A stretch of DNA of 64,000 bases from Nitrospirae bacterium MYbin3 (GTDB lineage: Bacteria; Nitrospirota; Thermodesulfovibrionia; Thermodesulfovibrionales; Dissulfurispiraceae), in assembly GCA_002753335.1 (NCBI GenBank), contig PEAD01000002.1, forward strand, positions 124,001 through 188,000, read 5' to 3'. Numbering within the stretch: position 1 is the stretch's first letter; the number at the start of each line of letters is the position of its first letter. Under the pieces are notes generated by a model. The model saw nothing but the letters and a program-made list of their open reading frames with translations, did no database searches and was not told where the DNA came from. This document shows, one piece after another, positions 702-21,350 of the stretch. The translations under genes were made by a program, and so were the position numbers.

Positions 702-3700
702 TTACCTATCAATTATTGTGCAACTTGAAGCATTAACGACTGTTAACCCTATACAATTATTCCCGTCAGTATCCAACCCTTTTAGTCCTGCATCAGTATA
801 AGAACAAGATGGAGTATCACTATCGCATCTTGGACTTGTTGAATAAAGTTTAAGGTCCTGTCCATTAGTAATAAGCTCTGTATTTGCAGTAATAGGATTA
901 GGCGCGCAAGCGCCAGTGCCTAATCTGTAATAAGTATTTCCAGGTTGGGTGTTCCAAATACTTATTCGTGTACCAGAACAGTTTGCTGGCAAAAATGTCG
1001 CAATCACTGTACAGTTTGCGGTTATCGCGCTCGTTGTATAGGTGAATGCCGCCGTTCCATTTGCTGGAGATCCTCCGCAGGTGCCGCTCATAGTTGCTGT
1101 GAAAGTAGCATTGGGTGTTACCGTGATGCTTGCGGTTCCATTATAGTTGACTGTTTGGCTTGCTCCGATTGTGCCGCCGGTGCCTACACGTGAAGTAGTA
1201 ACCGTATATTGTCTTGTAGCGCTGCAACTAGCGGTAGTGCCGCCATTAGATCCGGTGCACTGCCATGTGTAAGTTGATGTATTAGGTGTTACTGATGTTG
1301 GGGTGCCTGCAGAGCACAAATTAGTTGGTGTTGAGGTGAACGAACTGCCATTGTCTGTGCCACATGTGCCGTTTACGGAGGTTGCTATGGCTGCTGAGCA
1401 ACTGCCAGTGTCTCCTGTAGAATTTGTTAGGTTTAAAGTATAAGTCCCGGGAGTAACAGCTCCATTGCACGAATAGCTGCCGTCGTTAACACTGGTAGCA
1501 TTGGCGCATGCAGTACCGGATGAAGGCGCTCCGGTAGCTGGCGACCATGATATGGCAACAGGACCGTTATTTGTTGTATAGCTAAATGTGGATGTTCCCC
1601 CCGCGGCTGGAACAGGCGTTCCACTTATTGTGCATGTTGGATTAGGTACAGCAAACGGGACATAATAGACAGTGTCTTTGATTCCTCCATCACTTTGCCC
1701 ACCAATAACATACAGATAACCATTATTCACCACACTTGTATGGTGCTCACGGAGCTGGCTTGTACTTGAATTGTCTTTTATCGATGTAGTTTCTTTCCAG
1801 GTTCCGATAGACCCGTCAGTATTTATAGGAGCATAATAAACTGTATCACGTCGTGGGCTCCATCCACCAATAACATACATATAACCGTTGTTCACTGCGC
1901 TTGTGTGAAGATAACGATTTTGGGTTGTACTTGAGTTGTCTTTTATCGATGTTGTTTCTTTCCAAGTTCCGATAGACCCGTCAGCATTTATAGGGGAGTA
2001 ATAAACCGTATTCAGTGGATTGCCTGCATTATCAGATCCACCAATAACATACATATAACCATTGTTCACTACGCTTGTATGGAGCCAACGAGGCTTACTT
2101 GCAAGCAAATCGTCTTTTATCGATGTTGTTTCTTTCCAAGTTCCGATAGACCCGTCACTATTTATAGGGGCATAAAAGACCTTGTCAGAGGATGTTACGC
2201 CACCCCCAAGCACTGTGCTATTTCCCCCGATAACATACAGATAACCATTGTTCACTACGCTCGCAAGGTGGTAGAGCGGCTGGCTTGTGCTTGAGTTGTC
2301 TTTTATCGATGTTGTTTCTTTCCAAGTTCCGATAGACCCGTCACTATTTATAGGCGCGTAATAAACAGTATTAACGGGGGCAGCTCTATTTCCTCCAATA
2401 ACATACATATAACCTTTGTTCACCACTGTTGCATGGGCATCACGTGGTTTGCTACCCCCTACGTCAATTGGATTTGTCGCGAGCCAAGTTCCGATAGTCC
2501 CATTAGAATTAATAGGGGCATAGTAAACAGTGTCACGACTAGTTGTAGAGGCATCATACCCACCGATTACATACAAATAATTATTATAAGCTACACTTGT
2601 ATGGAGCCTACGTGGCTGGCTTGTACTGCTGACATTTATGGACGATGTTTCTGCCCAAGTCTTCACATGGCCTGTAGGCTGAGTATAAAAGCCTGAGCCA
2701 AAGTTAGAAATTGTGGCCTTGTTTCCTTCAGCTGCGTGTGTAAATCCGAATTTCACATTATCTAAACTGCCGGGCAGGGCAAAACATCTTTTTATAAGCG
2801 GTGTCTGCGTATAATCACTGGTAAGGTCATTGCAATCATTGCAGTCAACCCATGCTCTTAGAAGGGCATAACGACTCGTTGAATTAGGAGTAAATGTGGT
2901 GCAGGTACTGTCGTTGTAGTCATTGCGGATTTCGATGCGTGCAATATGGGTTGATGCGTCTTCAAGCCATGTAGCAGCGCTTGTATAATAGCAGCCTTCA
3001 GACGGGATGGCAAGAGGAAAGGTTGATCCTAAAGCGCATGATGCATTTGAACCTGAATGCGCATTGCTTGCTCCACCTACCGCAGCAATGTGATTGCTGG
3101 ATGGGTCGCTTTTGGATGAGGAATAACGTGTGTCAAATTCAACAGACAGACTATTGGCTCCTATAGGATTAGCTGCAGGCGTCGATCCTGTGTCATATCC
3201 GAGATGTGTCCCTAAATCTCCACAAACAGAGGTGGAGTTTGCGCTTGTCATTAAGGTATATGTGAAGCCGTCCCCGTAGGTTGATGAATCGCCGGTATCA
3301 CTTCCAGAAAACTTAAAAGCGTAATACGCCCGCATGGTTTTCCCTAAAAAGGTTGGGTTGTTGTCAGACCAAATACATCCCGGCGCAGTGCCTGAGCTGT
3401 TTCCCAAGGTAACCGTTGTAGCTGTAGCAGAAACTCCTGACCCTGCCGGAGTTGATGATAAATTGCTTATAAAACCTTGCGCCCCAATAGGGTCTTTAAT
3501 TGGGCCGGAGCTGCCACCGCATGAAGCCTTAATGTTTATGCTTAATGTTTTTTGGATCTTATTGTTATTATCATCGCCTTTTACAAAAAATGTAATAGGA
3601 TATGTTCCGGCAGTGGCGGTAATCGCCGTAATAGCATCAAGCTGAGCGCTTAATGTCGTGCCCCATGTGGCAGTAGCGCATCCGCCTGATGCTACAACAG

Positions 3701-4439
3701 GAATGCCGGATGTTGCAGTTATTCCTGCGGGTAAAGAACCGCTGCTTGTTTCTATGCACCATGAATATTGACCGGTAGAGGATATCCCCCCTGATGCAAA
3801 TACTGAAGCAGAATATGTTTTTGTAGCGCATCCATCGGGAAGCTGGTTGTTCAGGATAGTTAGCCTTCCGCTGGAACAGCCAGCCTTGCTTTTAAGCACT
3901 TCTAGTGGAAGTGTTCGGTAAAGATTGTCATTGTTAGTATTGAAAGATGATGGGGTTTGTATTTCATCAGATAAACTTCCTACAAAAGAATATGATCCGG
4001 ATGTGTTGGGTGGGGCCACCCCCATTGAAGAATCAGGTCCTTTGCTAGTAACTAAAAAAGCCATATAAAGACCACTTACGGTGTCGCGAATGCTTGTGGT
4101 TGTTTTTCCGCATAAACCACCAGTTGCGGTGTTTGTCAAATCACTGTCATACAAGTAAATAAAGTCGTTGCCCCATGGGTCTTTAGTGTCTCTCAATAAG
4201 GTGGGGAAAGTGGTATTATTAGGCAATACCTTGTTGGTTACACCATAGCTTATTACCGCATTGACGGCAGCATCAAGCGAGCCGATTGTTTTTTTAATCT
4301 TTTCTGTTTTTGCTTTTGAACCCCAAATCCAAATAGTTGCGCTTATTGTTGCGGTAATAATTATAAGAATTAATGCCGCCCATATAAGAAGAGAGCCTCT
4401 GTTGTTTCTAATATGTGGCGGAAAGCATCGTATATTCAT
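702..4439 (-). CDS. Giant GspK-like pseudopilin with lectin-like region and Kelch repeats
   Basis: Protein of 1245 residues. Residues 14-40 are a prepilin-type segment: R14-G15 then a 24-residue hydrophobic helix. The residue at mature position 5 is Trp, not Glu, as in GspK-type tip pseudopilins that lack Glu5. Residues 50-120 match the neighbouring pilin (KDPWG, then GGLCGKTTTS). Residues about 315-590 resemble an L-type lectin fold (GDGFTYTL, LSVEFDTR). Residues about 595-930 are six Kelch repeats (YVIGG, DTVYYAPIN, GSIGTWKET). The tail is Thr/Ser/Cys-rich repeat domains with no anchor. It starts 4 bases after the pilin gene stop, so both share an operon. Likely role: a surface-displayed tip adhesin of a type II secretion or type IV pilus-like fibre; ligand unknown. 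Confidence 0.8.
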   Translation of the reverse strand: MNIRCFPPHIRNNRGSLLIWAALILIIITATISATIWIWGSKAKTEKIKKTIGSLDAAVNAVISYGVTNKVLPNNTTFPTLLRDTKDPWGNDFIYLYDSDLTNTATGGLCGKTTTSIRDTVSGLYMAFLVTSKGPDSSMGVAPPNTSGSYSFVGSLSDEIQTPSSFNTNNDNLYRTLPLEVLKSKAGCSSGRLTILNNQLPDGCATKTYSASVFASGGISSTGQYSWCIETSSGSLPAGITATSGIPVVASGGCATATWGTTLSAQLDAITAITATAGTYPITFFVKGDDNNNKIQKTLSINIKASCGGSSGPIKDPIGAQGFISNLSSTPAGSGVSATATTVTLGNSSGTAPGCIWSDNNPTFLGKTMRAYYAFKFSGSDTGDSSTYGDGFTYTLMTSANSTSVCGDLGTHLGYDTGSTPAANPIGANSLSVEFDTRYSSSKSDPSSNHIAAVGGASNAHSGSNASCALGSTFPLAIPSEGCYYTSAATWLEDASTHIARIEIRNDYNDSTCTTFTPNSTSRYALLRAWVDCNDCNDLTSDYTQTPLIKRCFALPGSLDNVKFGFTHAAEGNKATISNFGSGFYTQPTGHVKTWAETSSINVSSTSQPRRLHTSVAYNNYLYVIGGYDASTTSRDTVYYAPINSNGTIGTWLATNPIDVGGSKPRDAHATVVNKGYMYVIGGNRAAPVNTVYYAPINSDGSIGTWKETTSIKDNSSTSQPLYHLASVVNNGYLYVIGGNSTVLGGGVTSSDKVFYAPINSDGSIGTWKETTSIKDDLLASKPRWLHTSVVNNGYMYVIGGSDNAGNPLNTVYYSPINADGSIGTWKETTSIKDNSSTTQNRYLHTSAVNNGYMYVIGGWSPRRDTVYYAPINTDGSIGTWKETTSIKDNSSTSQLREHHTSVVNNGYLYVIGGQSDGGIKDTVYYVPFAVPNPTCTISGTPVPAAGGTSTFSYTTNNGPVAISWSPATGAPSSGTACANATSVNDGSYSCNGAVTPGTYTLNLTNSTGDTGSCSAAIATSVNGTCGTDNGSSFTSTPTNLCSAGTPTSVTPNTSTYTWQCTGSNGGTTASCSATRQYTVTTSRVGTGGTIGASQTVNYNGTASITVTPNATFTATMSGTCGGSPANGTAAFTYTTSAITANCTVIATFLPANCSGTRISIWNTQPGNTYYRLGTGACAPNPITANTELITNGQDLKLYSTSPRCDSDTPSCSYTDAGLKGLDTDGNNCIGLTVVNASSCTIIDR
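1640..2650 (-). repeat. Kelch-encoding tandem DNA repeats
   Basis: A run of near-identical blocks inside the large pilin gene. The box TTTTATCGATG with its flanks begins at about 1771, 1936, 2110 and 2296, giving periods of 165, 174 and 186 bases. About 60 bases around each box are almost invariant, while the segments between boxes differ in length and sequence. Each block encodes one Kelch blade. Two more diverged copies lie at 2400-2650. Confidence 0.85.
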
Positions 4440-14963: not shown

Positions 14964-15040
14964 GGCGGTGTAGCTCAGACGGTTAGAGCATGCGGCTCAT
15001 ATCCGCAGTGTCCGGGGTTCGATTCCCTGCACCGCCACCA
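14964..15040 (+). tRNA. tRNA-Met (anticodon CAT)
   Basis: Complete cloverleaf of 77 bases with encoded CCA. Acceptor GGCGGTG pairs with CACCGCC, anticodon loop CTCATAT with CAT, T-arm CCGGGGTTCGATTCCCTG. The acceptor is fully paired, so it is not initiator-like: elongator Met, or Ile if the C is lysidinylated. The candidate Tn7-like transposon end begins 6 bases after its CCA. Confidence 0.93.
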
Positions 15041-15046
15041 AGTTTT

Positions 15047-15124
15047 TGTTACCGGGACTAATTGTTGGCCCGTTTGGCCAACTTTAGGTTCCTTTTACTT
15101 TTGGCCAAGCTTTGGTTCCTTTTA
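15047..15124 (+). mobile_element. Candidate Tn7-like transposon end with repeated transposase sites
   Basis: The TGTTACC at 15047 could be the transposon tip. Two 25-base direct repeats follow, 15073-15097 and 15100-15124, both with TTTGGCCAA and GGTTCCTTTTA and differing at 3 positions. Tandem sites of about 20 bases near a 5'-TGT tip are how TnsB-type transposases mark Tn7-like ends. The position right behind a tRNA gene suits TniQ/TnsD-directed homing. No inverted partner end was found in the window. The tip itself is inferred. Confidence 0.6.
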
Positions 15125-15171
15125 AAATATTACCATCTATAATAGACTCTATGACATTACAGAACTAGCTC

Positions 15172-16056
15172 TTAATCACCAAGTCGATATGGTATAGTGT
15201 ACTGCCTTATTGCATCCATTACATGATGTAGTAACCCGCCCATGGATCTTGAATAATATTCCGCTCCTATCTTTTCAATCTCGTAAAGAATATATTCCTT
15301 TTCATTTAAACGTCCTCTATGTTCAGGGTGAGACCAAACAAGGTTAACCAACTTTTTAAGATACTCTATGTTTTCATTTGATTCCATTGTTTCAAAAAGA
15401 GGAAGCAAAAGATTGCAGTCTATGTCCTGCCAGTCAAGAATTTGATTAAACAGCTTCAAGGGAATATCTACTGATTTTATGAAGAAGTGAGCACTTGATT
15501 TCATATACGAATTAATATTTTGATGATATTTTATATCCATCAATTTTTTTTCTACTTCATTCTCATTAAAAAATGCAAAATTGCGCTTTCTCCGCGCCAC
15601 AAAAATATTATTCTCTGTATCTTTTATGGCAAATGCGCATGCCGTGTAGCCATTGCGCTTTTGTCTCCATATACGTCTTGCGTACTCTATCGGTTCATCG
15701 GAAATCCTAAAAAAAATAAAATTAACTTTAAGATTGTGGTTAGCAATAATATTTATGATTTCATAATCAATATCTCGTTTGATATTTTCGGGTAAAATAA
15801 TTTTTATAGGACAAGTCATGTCTGCCTGCCTAAAAGGATTATACGATGTATTGTCTAAATACCCTGGATCCAAATTTAAAAATGGTGCCATCTTTTTCAA
15901 ATAACCCATTGACAGCGAATTTTTCCCACTTTCATATTGCGCTATTGCAGCCTGACTTACTCCTATTGAATCGGCAATATGTGCTTGAGATATACCTTGC
16001 ACCCGCCGTGAAATTAGAAGTAACTTTGAAAATGCAATCATCGGAGGAAAAAACAT
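15172..16056 (-). CDS. XRE-family regulator with long C-terminal domain
   Basis: Protein of 294 residues. A helix-turn-helix lies at about residues 18-55 (ISQAHIADSIGVSQAAIAQYESGKN). The remaining 230 residues are not recognised; they contain IKIILPENIKRDIDYEI and a Tyr/Trp-rich helical end. It is divergent from the tniQ operon across a 164-base AT-rich gap holding a perfect palindrome. It lies between the candidate transposon end and the transposition genes, so it is probably the element's own repressor. A later in-frame ATG at 16041 is also possible as start. Confidence 0.7.
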   Translation of the reverse strand: MFFPPMIAFSKLLLISRRVQGISQAHIADSIGVSQAAIAQYESGKNSLSMGYLKKMAPFLNLDPGYLDNTSYNPFRQADMTCPIKIILPENIKRDIDYEIINIIANHNLKVNFIFFRISDEPIEYARRIWRQKRNGYTACAFAIKDTENNIFVARRKRNFAFFNENEVEKKLMDIKYHQNINSYMKSSAHFFIKSVDIPLKLFNQILDWQDIDCNLLLPLFETMESNENIEYLKKLVNLVWSHPEHRGRLNEKEYILYEIEKIGAEYYSRSMGGLLHHVMDAIRQYTIPYRLGD

Positions 16057-16178
16057 ATGTTACATTATATATTTGATTTTAAAATATTCTACAAATAGTA
16101 TCTATTTGATATTGCAACAATTTTTCTTCAATTTTATTCGTCATAAAAACACATAACTTATTTTATAACATATCTATC

Positions 16179-16207
16179 AATATTTATAACATTTTGTTAT
16201 AAATATT
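16179..16207 (+). promoter_or_regulatory. Perfect 12-base inverted repeat operator upstream of tniQ
   Basis: AATATTTATAAC and GTTATAAATATT separated by ATTTT, ending 13 bases before the ATG of the first tniQ gene. A partial half-site (TTTTATAACA) lies at 16161-16170. Position and symmetry suit a dimeric XRE repressor; the AAGGAAA ribosome site follows. Confidence 0.75.
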
Positions 16208-16220
16208 CAAGGAAACTTCT

Positions 16221-17378
16221 ATGAGAAAAAGCACTAAAGCTATTAAGCAAAGAAACTTAGTTATTGTTGATAACCCATACCAACCACTTGATCTAGAAAT
16301 TCCAGAAATCCCTGAACGCAGAATACTTATAGCTGACCCTATTGGAATCGGTACGTCACTTATAGAGGGTCTCAACAGCTTGATTTCTCGAACAGCGCAA
16401 AAATATAGCATTCCGCTTAATATCCTAATGTACGAATTTTTCCCACAGTTAAAGGAAAAGCTTGTTTTCTACTCTGAAAAAAAGAAAGCACCTTTTATAA
16501 AGCCAGAGTTGTTCAAAGAGATTGAGAGCGCAATTTCCTCAACAATGCCACTTATGAGGAGTTTGAACAACAATATTAATCTTCAAATGCTAACTACGGC
16601 GACATTAGGATTTCACAAAATTAGATTTCAGCATTTAAATGAGCCCATTATCCGCAGATCTCGCGCATGGTGCCCAAATTGCTATCAAGACTGGCATGAT
16701 CGAAAATATCCGGTTTACGACCCCCTTATATGGAGCATATCATGCATTAAGGTCTGCCCTACACATAAAGCTCATTTGCTTTTATCCTGCCCCTACTGTC
16801 TTGCAGAGCCACCAATGATTGCCGACAAATACCGCCCAGGCTATTGCTCCAAGTGCCGAAAATGGCTTGGTAAGAAACAAGATAGAAATAATTACGATAG
16901 TGTTGATTTAAGATGGCACAAATGGCTTTTTAAAAACATAGGTGCGATGATTTCAGAGCAACACAGCAAACATGAGGTCAAATTTGCAAGCAGAAAATAC
17001 CGAATAATGAAAGCGTGTTTTGATGAACTTGGACTACCCCAGCATAATGTTCAATCTGCAACAATTGAAAATTACTTTCCCTCGTTTGAATCATTTCTGA
17101 AATTTATTTATTTGTCAGGCCTTCAATTTTCCAAAATGATGTGCTGCGATGAAGAACTACTCCCAATTAACATTTCTGAGTATGCCAAGGCATCAGAAGA
17201 GCTCAAAAAAAGACATGAAAAATATAGCAATATTTTTTCTCGACCATATAATTTAGCCGATTCGATTGATCATGAGAAAACAAATTATTGTTTCGATGTA
17301 AATATTTTTGATCTCATTCTTGGGTGCAAGAAATTTTACCCCACTCGATTAGGCACTAATAATGATATTAGGACATAG
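16221..17378 (+). CDS. TniQ/TnsD-family target selector 1
   Basis: Protein of 385 residues. The TniQ zinc-binding core is complete: AWCPNC (C151, C154), VCPTH (C179, H182), CPYC (C190, C193) and CSKC (C209, C212), with the typical YPVYDPLIWS and KWLG signatures. The N-terminal SLIEGLNSLISRTAQ helix is the usual TniQ start. The C-terminal 170 residues hold a helix-turn-helix-like segment (FPSFESFLKFIYLSGL), shorter than in TnsD of Tn7. TniQ proteins bind a target DNA or guide complex and recruit TnsC. It overlaps the next gene by 17 bases and is first in the operon, behind the palindrome. Confidence 0.88.
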   Translation: MRKSTKAIKQRNLVIVDNPYQPLDLEIPEIPERRILIADPIGIGTSLIEGLNSLISRTAQKYSIPLNILMYEFFPQLKEKLVFYSEKKKAPFIKPELFKEIESAISSTMPLMRSLNNNINLQMLTTATLGFHKIRFQHLNEPIIRRSRAWCPNCYQDWHDRKYPVYDPLIWSISCIKVCPTHKAHLLLSCPYCLAEPPMIADKYRPGYCSKCRKWLGKKQDRNNYDSVDLRWHKWLFKNIGAMISEQHSKHEVKFASRKYRIMKACFDELGLPQHNVQSATIENYFPSFESFLKFIYLSGLQFSKMMCCDEELLPINISEYAKASEELKKRHEKYSNIFSRPYNLADSIDHEKTNYCFDVNIFDLILGCKKFYPTRLGTNNDIRT

Positions 17379-18696
17379 CTATTTATCAAGCTTAAATCCA
17401 GAAGGACTAGGAACTCCTCTTGCTGAGTCCGTAACTAGTTATATACCTCGTTTATGCAAACTACATTCTATTAGCTTTAGCACGTTTCTATCAGACATTT
17501 TATTTCCGAAAATGGGTACTTTGTCATTAGTAAATAGCATTAAAAGGGGTTGTTCCAGAGTTTATACGCGCCCGTATGCGTTTAACGGCGTCAGCAATTT
17601 TACCGAGAAGATAATCCATACACTTGAGCTTCTCACTCTCCAAAAGAATCTAATTTATATAACATTGCTACCACTAAGAAATATCATTAGCTGTCAAAAC
17701 GTCTTCCGCCATTATCGCGCATGGTGTCCAATATGCCTTGCAGAACGCAAAGATCGTGCACTCACAATATACGAGCCTCTCGTATGGACAATAAAAGCCG
17801 TTAGGAGTTGTTTAGTCCACCACATATCACTACGCACTCAATGCCATAAATGCGGCAATATGCTACCAGTGATAGCAAGACATGTCCAAAACGGGTTTTG
17901 CTCTACATGTGGGCACTGGCTCGGTTTAACAGATACAAACAATAAATATCCTGTGGATCCTATCCCCGATTTCGACTCATGGAAAGATAGAAACATTGGT
18001 GAATTGATATCTATTCTTCCAGAAACTATAAATATAACTCGCAACGAAACATTGCGTACAGTACTAACAGAGCACATTAATTTGCATTATAAGGGTAGTG
18101 CCTCGGCATATGCCAGGTCGGCAAAAATTCCAAAAGCTACTATAAGCAGATGGCAAGCAGGAACAGCTCTGCCTTCCCTAGAAAATCTCTTGAAGATAAG
18201 CTACAGAAGCCAGACACCATTAGCAGACCTTATAACTAAGGGTCGCTTGCAGAAGGATGCTAAAGTCTTTGATTATCAGGATTCGGAATCTCTTTTCCCC
18301 GCTTCTCCAAGGAAGACCAATGATTTTGACTACGCTTATGTCAAGCGACACCTCGAATCTGTCCTTAAAAGCAAATCGGAAAATCCTCTTTCCATGACCA
18401 AAGTGGCTGAGAATTTAGGCTATACGAAAAAAACTTTATACAAACATTTCTATGTTCTTTGTCGGCACATCTCAGCGAAAGCAGCATGTCATAGAAAAGC
18501 CCGCAAAGAGCAAAGACTAGGTCAAGAAAGACTTTTTGTTGAGAAAGTTGCTGAACAACTGCACATCGAAGGCGTGTATCCAAGCTATGACGCTATCGAA
18601 AATGCAGCCCCCAAAAAAGGAATTATGCGCAGCCACGAATCACGAGACGCTTGGAAAAACAAGTTGCGTGAGTTTGGGTTTGAGAATGGAGGCTGA
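17362..18696 (+). CDS. TniQ/TnsD-family target selector 2
   Basis: Protein of 444 residues, a diverged relative of its upstream neighbour. Zinc ligands are present: CPIC (C122, C125), C150, H153 or H154, CHKC (C161, C164) and CSTC (C180, C183), with GHWLG after. At about residues 245-285 is a clear helix-turn-helix (SAKIPKATISRWQAG, then LPSLENLLKIS), and the C-terminal 110 residues carry a second DNA-binding-like region. This longer build is TnsD-like, so this is the better candidate for recognising a fixed attachment site such as the tRNA-Met region. The start overlaps the first tniQ gene by 17 bases. Confidence 0.87.
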   Translation: MILGHSYLSSLNPEGLGTPLAESVTSYIPRLCKLHSISFSTFLSDILFPKMGTLSLVNSIKRGCSRVYTRPYAFNGVSNFTEKIIHTLELLTLQKNLIYITLLPLRNIISCQNVFRHYRAWCPICLAERKDRALTIYEPLVWTIKAVRSCLVHHISLRTQCHKCGNMLPVIARHVQNGFCSTCGHWLGLTDTNNKYPVDPIPDFDSWKDRNIGELISILPETINITRNETLRTVLTEHINLHYKGSASAYARSAKIPKATISRWQAGTALPSLENLLKISYRSQTPLADLITKGRLQKDAKVFDYQDSESLFPASPRKTNDFDYAYVKRHLESVLKSKSENPLSMTKVAENLGYTKKTLYKHFYVLCRHISAKAACHRKARKEQRLGQERLFVEKVAEQLHIEGVYPSYDAIENAAPKKGIMRSHESRDAWKNKLREFGFENGG

Positions 18697-18768
18697 TTCT
18701 TTAAGCGCAAAAAAACAATACCAATAAAAATCGACCAGCATTAATGCGAGGTCAAAAAGGAGGCAGTT

Positions 18769-19950
18769 ATGTTATCTAGTGAAAATTTTGAGGTCTGGTG
18801 CGCAAAGAATAGGGTGTCCGAAAAAGCAAAGGCTTTCATTTCACGCGTCCGGGGTTCACAACCCTCAAGGGCTGTGGGGAACCGGTTGCGAAATGTCAAA
18901 GGTGCTTATCCCAGCAACAAAAATGGCTTCATGGTCCAGTTTGAAAGCCACACAGCTGAACTATGTGGTATTTATACTTACGAGTATGATGCTGACGTGC
19001 TGGAATACTATGATCAGCCCGAATTGATATATGTCAGATACAAAGACAAAAACGGCAGGGCGGGACTTTTTGGATATAGGCCGGATTTCCTGGTAATTAC
19101 AGAATCATGTGCATTCATTGATGAGTGGAAAACTGAAAATCAAATCGCAAAGCTATCTGCTGACTATCCCGACCGGTATTACCGTGATAGTGACGGCACC
19201 TGGCATTATGTGCCTGGGGAGGAATTTGCTGATAGCATTGGTCTTCAATTTAGAGTACGAACAACTGAGGAGATTAATTACACGCTACATCGCAATATTC
19301 AATTTTTAGAAGATTATCTCCGCGCAGATAATTTAACAATACCGGAAGAAAAGATAAACCTTATACTTTCAACTGTTAAAAGCTCTCCCGGAACAACTCT
19401 TTCAAGCCTTATTGATAGTCTCTCACCGCAGGTAAGCGTTGATTTTATATATATAATGATTTCCGATTTTAGAATATATCTTGATCTAGAAACATATCTA
19501 CTTGTAGACCCTGAGCATGCAATCATTTTCCCGGATGAAGAAATCGCAAAAGCCCTTAAAATATTCGATACCCAGCACCCTACGCTTTCTTTCCAGGACC
19601 TGCGACCTGTTTTGGTAGATGTCGGAGGATCATTAGTATGGGACGGCATACCTTTGACGATTGAATTTGTGGGGGCATCATCAATAGTTCTTAAGGGCAG
19701 GGATGATAAAATCATCACGTTAGAAAAAAGTTTATTAAACAAGTTTGTTCGGGAAGGAATCATTACCGGCCTTACTACGGTTACGGGAACTTCACGTGAT
19801 TTTGTATTGGAAATTATCATGAAAGCTAGCAAGGATGCCTTGATTAAGGCAAATCATAGGTACCAAACCATACTGCCTTACCTTACCAGAAATAACCATA
19901 GTGAGAAGTGGTCGGGTTTGTCTGTACAGGCTGAAGCCTATTATAAGTGA
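18769..19950 (+). pseudogene. TnsA-TnsB fusion transposase, truncated by IS3
   Basis: 393 codons remain. Residues about 50-170 are a TnsA-type endonuclease: E59 or E64, YRPDF with D106, and EWK with E119 and K121, replacing the usual QxK. Residues about 175-270 are linker and winged-helix-like. From about 285 the sequence takes on the small-barrel region at the start of TnsB/TniA proteins (SLVWDGIPLTIEFVG, ASKDALIKANHRY). The frame enters the IS3 terminal repeat at 19899 and stops at 19950, before any DDE domain. AAGGAGG precedes the ATG. Such a protein could nick but not join strands, so the element should be immobile unless a complete copy exists elsewhere. Confidence 0.8.
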
Positions 19951-19962
19951 TAAGCTGTTCTA

Positions 19963-20793
19963 TCAGGCTGCCACCTTAATAGATGGCAATGTGCCATAGT
20001 AAACTTCATCCGGTGTTTTGTCGTCAAGTCCTTGATGCCGCCGCCGACCGTTGTAAAACTCAAAATACTCTATAAGTCCTTTCCTTAATTCCGCAATCGA
20101 ATCATAAGACTTCAGATAAATATCTTCATATTTCACGCTTCGCCAAAGTCGCTCTACAAATACGTTATCTTTCCAGCAGCCTTTTCCATCCATGCTGATC
20201 TTAATCCCGTTGTCTTTGAGTATTTCCGTAAATGCCTCCGATGTGAATTGACTACCTTGGTCTGTATTGAAGATCTCTGGTTTGCCGAACCTTGATATCG
20301 CCTCTTCAAGAGCCTCTGTACAAAAAGAGGTATCCAGCGTATTTGATAACCGCCAGGCCAATACTTTTCGGCTGGCCCAATCCATTATCGCTACAAGATA
20401 GCAAAATCCCTTGGCCATAGGTATATAGGTTATGTCAGCCGCATATACCTGATTCGCACGATTGATTTCCATTCCACGCAACAAGTAGGGATAAACCTTA
20501 TGATCAGGATGAGGATTAGATAGCCTTGGCTTTTGGTATAAAGCCACTATGCCCATCTTCAACATCAGCGTCCGTACATGGCCGCGTCCAATCTCATGCC
20601 CTCTGTCCCTTAGCTCATTGCGTATTCTCCTGTTGCCGTAAAAAGGATATTTCATGTGAATTTCATCTATTAGGCGCATCAGCTCCAGGTCTTTTGCGTT
20701 CATAGGAAATGATTCATAATACAAGCTCGATCTCGACATGTTTAGTATTTGACATTGCCTGGTCAGCGGCAATTCATTAGCACGATCTATCAT
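19963..20793 (-). CDS. IS3-family transposase OrfB (DDE integrase core)
   Basis: Protein of 276 residues. HTH_21-like region at about 35-85 (RLIDEIHMKYPFYGNRRI), then the rve core with D120 (YAADITYIP), D178 (FNTDQGSQF) and E214 (VFVERLWRS), and the closing HQGLDDKTPDEVYYG. The catalytic triad is intact. Its start overlaps the end of orfA by ATGA. In this family an OrfAB fusion is usually made by -1 frameshifting; orfB is in the -1 frame here. Confidence 0.95.
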   Translation of the reverse strand: MIDRANELPLTRQCQILNMSRSSLYYESFPMNAKDLELMRLIDEIHMKYPFYGNRRIRNELRDRGHEIGRGHVRTLMLKMGIVALYQKPRLSNPHPDHKVYPYLLRGMEINRANQVYAADITYIPMAKGFCYLVAIMDWASRKVLAWRLSNTLDTSFCTEALEEAISRFGKPEIFNTDQGSQFTSEAFTEILKDNGIKISMDGKGCWKDNVFVERLWRSVKYEDIYLKSYDSIAELRKGLIEYFEFYNGRRRHQGLDDKTPDEVYYGTLPSIKVAA

Positions 20794-21092
20794 CTCTTTG
20801 CGCTCGGCTCGGCTATGCGCCCGAGCGCGACTGATAAAAAATCGTTCTCCATAGTCAATTGCCCTATCTTGGCATGTAGCTCTTTTACTGGAGGACCTTC
20901 TGCCTCTTTCTTATCCTTGCTAAAAACTTCCTCTGCCCTCTCCAACAGTTGCTTCTTCCACTCCGTGATTTGATTCTGATGAACTCCAAATCGCTGCGAC
21001 AGCTCTATCAAAGTCTGCTCCCCTTTGATTGCCTCCAGTGCCACTTTTGCCTTGAACCCTGCCTTGTGATTCCTTCTCGGTCTTTTTGCCAT
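20790..21092 (-). CDS. IS3-family transposase OrfA (HTH protein)
   Basis: Protein of 100 residues: basic start (KRPRRNHKAGFKAKVALEA), HTH_Tnp_1 helices (LSQRFGVHQNQITEWKKQLL) and a leucine-zipper-like tail used to join OrfAB. It recognises the terminal repeats. It lies just inside the right-hand inverted repeat and ends in the ATGA overlap with orfB. Confidence 0.95.
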   Translation of the reverse strand: MAKRPRRNHKAGFKAKVALEAIKGEQTLIELSQRFGVHQNQITEWKKQLLERAEEVFSKDKKEAEGPPVKELHAKIGQLTMENDFLSVALGRIAEPSAKR

Positions 21093-21174
21093 TTCGCTGC
21101 TCCTTTCTCTAATTATTTTAGAGCAGCTTTATCACTTATGTCCTAGTTCAGTTTTTCCAGACCACTTCTCACTA

Positions 21175-21350
21175 CGCCACAGCCTTTCTACATAGACATT
21201 GTCCATCCAGCAACCTTTGCCATCCATGCTTATACTGATGCCGTTGCTGATAAGTATCTCTGTAAAAGCCTCTGATGTAAACTGACTGCCCTGATCTGTA
21301 TTGAATATCTCAGGCTTCCCATACCTTCTTATTGCTTCTTCCAGTGCAGC
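21175..21350 (-). pseudogene. Fragment of a second IS3-family orfB
   Basis: In one minus-strand frame, about 58 codons match the middle of the neighbouring orfB closely: EEAIRRYGKPEIFNTDQGS, SEAFTEIL, SMDGKGCWMDN and VERLWRS, including the second Asp and the Glu of the triad. DNA identity to 20140-20325 is high but clearly below 100%, so it comes from a related, different IS. It ends at the terminal repeat of the intact IS on one side and runs into the glycosyltransferase gene on the other. Confidence 0.85.

Follow-up and report, generated by a model that had tools for sequence, protein, structure and literature searches.

The DNA analysed here, called the window, is a stretch of 64,000 nt on contig PEAD01000002.1 of Nitrospirae bacterium MYbin3 (phylum Nitrospirota), and it carries beside a tRNA-Met gene a Tn7-like element, part of which lies on another contig. 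The gene set of the element comprises a TnsB DDE transposase, a TnsA endonuclease, a TnsC AAA+ regulator and two TniQ/TnsD proteins, one of which, TniQ1, ends in a segment related by sequence to the host protein ScpA. The tRNA-Met gene (14964..15040, plus strand; anticodon CAT; detected by ARAGORN and by Rfam RF00005 with 66.7 bits) is the presumed attachment site, and the element faces its 3' end. As the initial annotation, which was made from the sequence alone, had described, 25-nt direct repeats (direct repeat D1) follow the tRNA gene; there are two of them (15073..15097 and 15100..15124, both on the plus strand), they are 88% identical and spaced 27 nt, and the first begins 33 nt beyond the tRNA-Met. 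They are putative TnsB-binding sites. A pattern search found this repeat pattern at a single place in the genome, and the reversed control gave 0 matches. Judging from a TGT start and the repeats, the DNA from the tRNA to the putative transposon end (15041..15062, strand not applicable) would be target DNA; the end itself is tentatively placed at 15063 (TGTTGGCC...), 22 nt past the tRNA-Met.

Inside this end lies a gene for an XRE-family regulator of 294 aa (15172..16056, minus strand; HTH_3 39.5 bits, cut-off 23), which carries an unnamed C-terminal domain and is divergent from the transposition operon. The operon opens with the two adjacent tniQ genes reported by the initial annotation, tniQ1 (16221..17378, plus strand, 385 aa) and tniQ2 (17362..18696, plus strand, 444 aa), the second of which overlaps the end of the first by 17 bp. 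Their Pfam TniQ scores are 37.2 and 55 bits, respectively, against a cut-off of 27 bits, and no other TniQ profile match was obtained in the genome of 2.93 Mb. They are followed by the 5' part (1.1 kb) of a fused tnsAB gene (18769..19903, plus strand), which encodes the TnsA nuclease and the N-terminal region of TnsB and is cut by an insertion sequence (IS).

The two TniQ proteins differ in their C-terminal parts. TniQ2 matches the TnsD chain of PDB 8v32_J over its whole length (residues 6-439, E 1e-63), and it is composed of a TniQ core and a C-terminal extension of multiple helix-turn-helix (HTH) domains, for which HTH matches are present. Its predicted model is confident (pLDDT, predicted local distance difference test, 89.6) and retrieves the same TnsD chain in Foldseek with E 6.5e-29. 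TniQ2 is therefore regarded as a TnsD-like selector, which probably homes to tRNA-Met. TniQ1 matches the same TnsD chain in its core only (residues 18-245, E 1e-31) and is closer to it than to the Cascade-binding TniQ (E 5e-21). The Cys/His zinc ligands of TniQ1 are invariant, and its C-terminus, where a C-terminal HTH array is lacking, gave no HTH match in Pfam.

What the C-terminus of TniQ1 holds is a segment of the kleisin ScpA (residues 319-372; 17175..17336, plus strand), supported by profile, PDB and host-ScpA comparisons. Pfam did not report ScpA for this tail, but four other tests, with NCBIfam, the PDB, the host ScpA and a Nitrospirota hidden Markov model (HMM), do find it. A blind NCBIfam scan gave ScpA with E 8.8e-4 for the whole of TniQ1 and E 5.7e-5 for the tail fragment, and a blind PDB scan gave 3w6j_A, the ScpA chain of a ScpAB complex, with E 0.0088. 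The host ScpA (contig C64, residues 118-169) aligns to residues 321-371 of TniQ1 with a score of 87, compared with 29.2 +/- 4.5 and a maximum of 57 for shuffled tails (n=2000) and 55 for the next best TniQ. With the HMM, built from 21 Nitrospirota ScpA proteins, TniQ1 scored 31.1 bits and the best other TniQ 4.4; among the 5,787 ORFs (open reading frames) of all loci, TniQ1 was the sole match. Conversely, when TniQ1 was used as query against 396 Nitrospirota genomes, ScpA was retrieved in 17 of them, at residues 316-375 and with an identity of at most 48%. The tail was absent from all of the 74 other TniQ proteins tested (74/74).

The segment contains the motifs NIFSRP and FDVNIFDL exactly as they occur in the ScpA of relatives, and the loop between them has diverged. 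Identity to the nearest ScpA gene at codon positions 1, 2 and 3 is 0.65, 0.61 and 0.43, respectively, and at position 3 it is about the level seen between ScpA genes of different genera. This pattern is consistent with constraint at the level of the protein. The tail is not host scpA that was wrongly assembled into tniQ1, as its identity to the host ScpA is only 37%. From these comparisons of sequence we firmly conclude that the tail and the middle segment of ScpA, which binds ScpB, are homologous and that the homology is old. In bacterial ScpA it is the rope-like middle region to which the ScpB dimer binds, and archaeal ScpA proteins lacking the region did not bind ScpB (PMC7055376). TniQ1 thus resembles the ScpA of SMC-ScpAB in this region, and it differs from a complete ScpA in that the N-terminal helical domain that binds the SMC neck and the C-terminal winged helix are both missing. 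No literature joining TniQ with ScpA was found in open-licence papers; one paper dealing with both TniQ and condensin was unrelated.

The remaining core genes were traced beyond the window. Both TnsA profiles, PF08721 and PF08722 (the N- and C-terminal domains), are above cut-off in the window, and the TnsA frame runs into the N-terminal region of TnsB (PDB 9bw1, chain M, residues 2-372, E 1e-78), as had been noted from the sequence. The window TnsAB is collinear with naturally occurring TnsAB fusions, which are about 900-950 aa long and come from other phyla as well as from plasmids of cyanobacteria; by this comparison TnsA-TnsB is a true fusion. Contig C51 (L027, 12,036 bp) opens in the catalytic domain of TnsB, with the TnsB 3' part at 2-1174 and TnsC at 1171-2334 (TniB 37 bits; PDB 8fcu_Q TnsC, E 1.5e-95). 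The only genome match of PF09299, the Mu-transposase C-terminal domain, is on this contig, and the DDE residues of TnsB are intact (D18, D87 and E123, in invariant alignment columns). About 135 TnsB residues between the window and C51 pieces are unassembled; by gene logic, with no read across the gap, C51 would be the true continuation of the window tnsAB. Profiles for TniQ, TnsA, TnsB and TnsC, with which the initial annotation had proposed to check its reading, have thus all found matches.

The coding DNA of the element stops at 19903. From 19904 to 21169, on the minus strand, extends an IS3-family IS of 1,266 bp with the ends AGAAGTGGTC, recognised by its ends and flanks and by NF033516 transpos_IS3 (E 1.6e-80), and therefore the 393-aa TnsA-TnsB ORF owes roughly its last 15 residues to the IS. 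It is followed by a fragment of a second IS3-type transposase (21170..21340, minus strand), which is continuous with contig C61 and not with tnsAB. In the window the two IS flanks fail to pair as a 3-bp duplication, being GTG on the left and CAC on the right. The end of C51 (...CAAAC/IS) pairs instead with contig C50 (IS/AACAGC), giving the duplication AAC, and the end of C61 (...TTCCAC/IS) pairs with the window DNA to the right of the IS (IS/CACTACG), giving the duplication CAC; the IS3-type transposase homology crosses the C61/window join with a one-base frame shift. Since the flanks are mismatched in the window and matched elsewhere, the assembler fused two genomic places at the shared IS. 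The window is a chimera at this point, the DNA to the right of 21169, with polysaccharide-type genes, does not lie beside the transposon, and no linkage is to be assumed for findings that span 19904-21170.

The initial annotation had taken the element for a remnant truncated at 19898. This was rejected, because the IS and the assembly chimera explain the stop, and because tnsC and the 3' part of tnsB are on C51: the element is split by an IS and by assembly, and is not a remnant without core genes. The MYbin3 copy is nevertheless probably inactive, since the IS interrupts tnsAB. Searching elsewhere in the genome for tnsC and the other end, as had been suggested, was successful for tnsC but not for the end, no second end being found on C51 or in the first 20 kb of C50 by search with the left-end repeat. 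The left-end 24-nt unit gave 0 matches there at up to 7 substitutions, and blastn gave short matches at chance level only. DNA adjoining tRNA-Met in the same-genus genome G246, searched against the MYbin3 genome, gave no match. One end with two repeats is thus seen, and a 5-bp target duplication is putative without a mapped second end. Taken as a whole, the initial annotation is confirmed in part as to what it observed and supported in part as to how it interpreted this.

Downstream of tnsC, C51 carries an IS21-type element, a NERD-domain gene, a small XRE gene and a filamentous-phage-like gene set. The latter appears as a prophage with a G2P-type replication protein and a Zot/pI-like morphogenesis protein (6138-11955 of C51 and 134-3756 of C50, L059); it sits between tnsC and a tRNA-Lys gene on C50 and is broken by a copy of the IS3-family IS, which is flanked by the AAC duplication.

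Since TnsC resembles that of 8fcu, TnsAB that of 9bw1 and TniQ2 the TnsD of 8v32, the core belongs to the fused-TnsAB branch, and on these matches the element is a Tn7-like transposon of the branch from which the CRISPR-associated transposons (CASTs) of types I-B2 and I-D also came. We take the three PDB entries to be those of PmcCAST / Tn7744, a type I-B2 CAST. This transposon adds a new member to a branch already known, and its ScpA-tailed TniQ is a new variant. With PmcCAST / Tn7744 it shares the fused TnsAB, TnsC, TnsD and the TniQ core (E 1e-31 to 1e-95); unlike there, no Cascade is seen here, the gene order is tniQ-tniQ-tnsAB-tnsC, and TniQ1 ends in the ScpA segment. The TnsD of PmcCAST / Tn7744 homes to a tRNA gene (PMC11406308), as TnsD proteins of the branch do in both CAST I-B2 and I-D (PMC11406308, PMC10293859). 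CyCAST and McCAST (type I-D) likewise have a fused TnsAB, a larger TnsD that homes past a tRNA and a smaller TniQ for the second route (PMC10293859); unlike in them, no Cas10d or Cascade is seen here, and the second route would be guided by a host protein complex. Homing of I-D CASTs is to 30-33 nt past the tRNA (PMC10293859), and the first repeat starts 33 nt past tRNA-Met here. In line with the initial annotation, neither the element part in the window nor the ORFs scanned on C51 yielded a recognisable cas gene, the whole genome not having been searched for cas; nor were CRISPR array-like repeats seen in the window, on C51 or within the first 20 kb of C50.

The genes are sporadic: TnsAB turned up in 5 genomes when 296 from the Nitrospirota were sampled, and TniQ2 in 5 when 176 genomes of the order were searched, a distribution unlike that of a locus fixed in many genomes. 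G246 is 95% identical to the window up to 15041 and unrelated beyond, with tRNA-Met and an acyl-CoA ligase gene present; as its homology ends at the tRNA-Met end, the element is not fixed. G246 diverges at both tRNA-Met and tRNA-Lys. A clean empty site was not obtained: in G205 the ligase gene and the tRNA-Lys-side gene are 10 kb apart and in different orientation.

The gene order, which had been called unusual, was compared with that of 88 related loci. Only one relative, in G198 (L015), a genome of the same taxonomic order, has both tniQ genes before tnsA, tnsB and tnsC; the remaining loci are arranged tnsAB-tnsC-tniQ(-tniQ) or tniQ-tnsAB-tnsC-tniQ, or have fewer tniQ genes. The G198 element resembles ours in the tniQ-tniQ start and in a TniQ that is 39% identical to TniQ2 and its sister in the tree (100/100), and it differs in that TnsA and TnsB are separate, an extra 156-aa ORF is present, and the ScpA tail is absent. 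That ORF (L015 10609-11079, minus strand), between tniQ and tnsA, resembles by eye a degenerate piece of the TnsB catalytic region (NIDHLQLDLE...) and has no Pfam match. In the two-TniQ relatives L080, L090, L092, L148 and L154 the tRNA 3' end faces the tniQ-proximal end, and in L130 (Poribacteria, a single tniQ) a tRNA-CAT precedes a pair of 27-nt repeats spaced 28 nt; relatives occur at many tRNAs and on plasmids. The XRE regulator has a counterpart as well. An XRE protein of 245 aa that adjoins tnsAB in G005 (L016, 10726-11433) aligns to residues 11-184 of the window protein, so the likeness extends past the HTH, and XRE proteins with this C-terminal domain are probably recurrent regulators of the fused-TnsAB branch.

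The initial annotation had remarked that the second TniQ has no obvious guide. This holds in so far as no cas genes were seen in the parts scanned, but a candidate partner is suggested by the protein's own sequence, namely by the ScpA segment. In general a TniQ protein connects TnsC with a locator; where the protein is small and has no large extension at its C-terminus, this is taken as a hallmark of an element with an additional selector (PMC10293859). Given this bridging role and the ScpB-binding role of the ScpA middle region, we propose that TniQ1 docks on ScpB. In the homing route, the C-terminal HTH domains of TniQ2 would recognise the region of tRNA-Met and bring TnsC and TnsAB to it. 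TniQ1 would keep the TnsC-facing TniQ core, with the kleisin segment in place of DNA-reading HTH domains; its tail would dock on the ScpB of the host's condensin, SMC-ScpAB, and TnsC and TnsAB would then insert near condensin-loaded DNA, a protein-guided route without a guide RNA. The XRE protein probably represses the transposition operon. All of these roles, including the targeting by TniQ1 and the choice between the two routes, are inferred. The full reading, with TniQ1 as a second target selector docking on ScpB/SMC-condensin and TniQ2 as the homing selector, leans in our judgement just to the probable side. That the transposon captured the ScpB-binding part of ScpA, fused it to TniQ and uses the bacterial condensin as targeting cue falls a little short of an even chance. 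Such a locator would differ from Tn7 TnsE and Tn6022 TnsF, which likewise provide a second protein-based target route beside or in place of TnsD, in being a captured piece of host kleisin fused to TniQ rather than a separate protein.

Several observations weigh against condensin-guided targeting. The tail is known in one TniQ only, and the sister element in G198 is without it. TniQ1 sits on a long tree branch (2.63), so that it may be decaying, and the tree does not fix its placement. Part of the constraint seen at the codon positions is that acting on ScpA. Structure prediction of both TniQ proteins, which had been suggested, was confident for TniQ2 and weak for the TniQ1 tail (block means 31-68, residues 311-385); a weak model would be expected for a rope-like segment, yet it gives no support. 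The host ScpB was not found near scpA by signature, no whole-genome ScpB search having been made. Finally, tnsAB is interrupted by the IS.

The main rival explanation is that a fragment of scpA was joined in frame by accident to a tniQ/tnsD gene from which the HTH domains had been lost, so that the tail is idle and only TniQ2 selects targets. The single known example, the fast evolution of TniQ1 and the IS in tnsAB would all suit such an accident. What speaks for a working protein is that the reading frame stays open over 385 codons, that divergence at third codon positions almost reaches that between the ScpA genes of different genera while positions 1 and 2 are conserved and both motifs exact, that the overlap of tniQ1 with tniQ2 is like that of a working operon, and that the zinc-finger ligands of TniQ1 are kept. 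We consider an accidental fusion unlikely, though it has to be taken seriously.

It is distinctly less likely that the tail acts on the host, by competing for ScpB and so disturbing condensin, or by tying transposition to the timing of replication or segregation. A competitor would look identical, since the segment is the ScpB-binding region; here, however, it is fused to the core of a target selector, which is known to bridge the locator to TnsC (PMC10293859). Very improbable is a CAST whose Cascade is encoded at another place in the genome or in a part of the element that was not recovered, with TniQ1 as the RNA-guided adaptor. Among solved structures the nearest are those of type I-B CAST proteins, PADLOC TniQ_IB matches both TniQs, and with the second end not found the cargo is incompletely known; against this stand the lack of a cas-like ORF among those scanned on C51 and of an array in the window, C51 and the start of C50, the greater nearness of TniQ1 to TnsD than to the Cascade-binding TniQ, and the finding that most of 998 dual TniQ-TnsD loci have no assigned CRISPR partner (PMC10293859). 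A fixed chromosomal locus that is no transposon would agree with the missing second end and target duplication, but it can hardly be reconciled with the sporadic distribution, the absence from the tRNA-Met of the same-genus G246, the terminal repeats, and relatives at many tRNAs and on plasmids.

If targeting by TniQ1 through ScpB/SMC-condensin is real, it would be a second route guided by a host complex, unlike attachment-site binding, RNA guidance or TnsE, and would show a TniQ adaptor gaining a new locator through domain capture. According to a review, the fused-TnsAB branch holds varied targeting systems that do not involve CRISPR and are unstudied (PMC11406308). In many elements with two TniQ proteins the partner of the second is not known; in the present one the sequence of the tail predicts it, ScpB/SMC-condensin. 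Insertion could then be steered by a protein tag in place of a guide RNA, and the tail would be a natural ScpB-binding peptide for condensin biology. Other C-terminal extensions of TniQ proteins may also hold captured segments of host proteins.

A few further observations were made on the compared loci and in the window. Viral contigs were searched with TnsAB, TniQ1 and a TnsB alignment, and nothing near this element was found; one IMG/VR viral contig (L077, 8441-12507) carries tnsAB-tnsC without tniQ, with a terminase, a head protease and an integrase on the same stretch, and is possibly a Tn7-like element in a phage or prophage. On the Allocoleopsis franciscana plasmid pMIC7113.03 (L160), tnsAB-tnsC-tniQ directly adjoins a type III (Cas10/Cmr/Csx10) locus, for which cargo and functional coupling are both possible. 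Two Bacillales loci (L137 and L138) have an extra TnsB-like ORF of 336 aa between tnsAB and tnsC in the order tniQ-tnsAB-tnsC-tniQ, and L139 is without it. In the window itself, a 165-bp tandem repeat in 4.2 copies lies at 1699-2423 inside an ORF of 1,245 aa (702-4439, minus strand).

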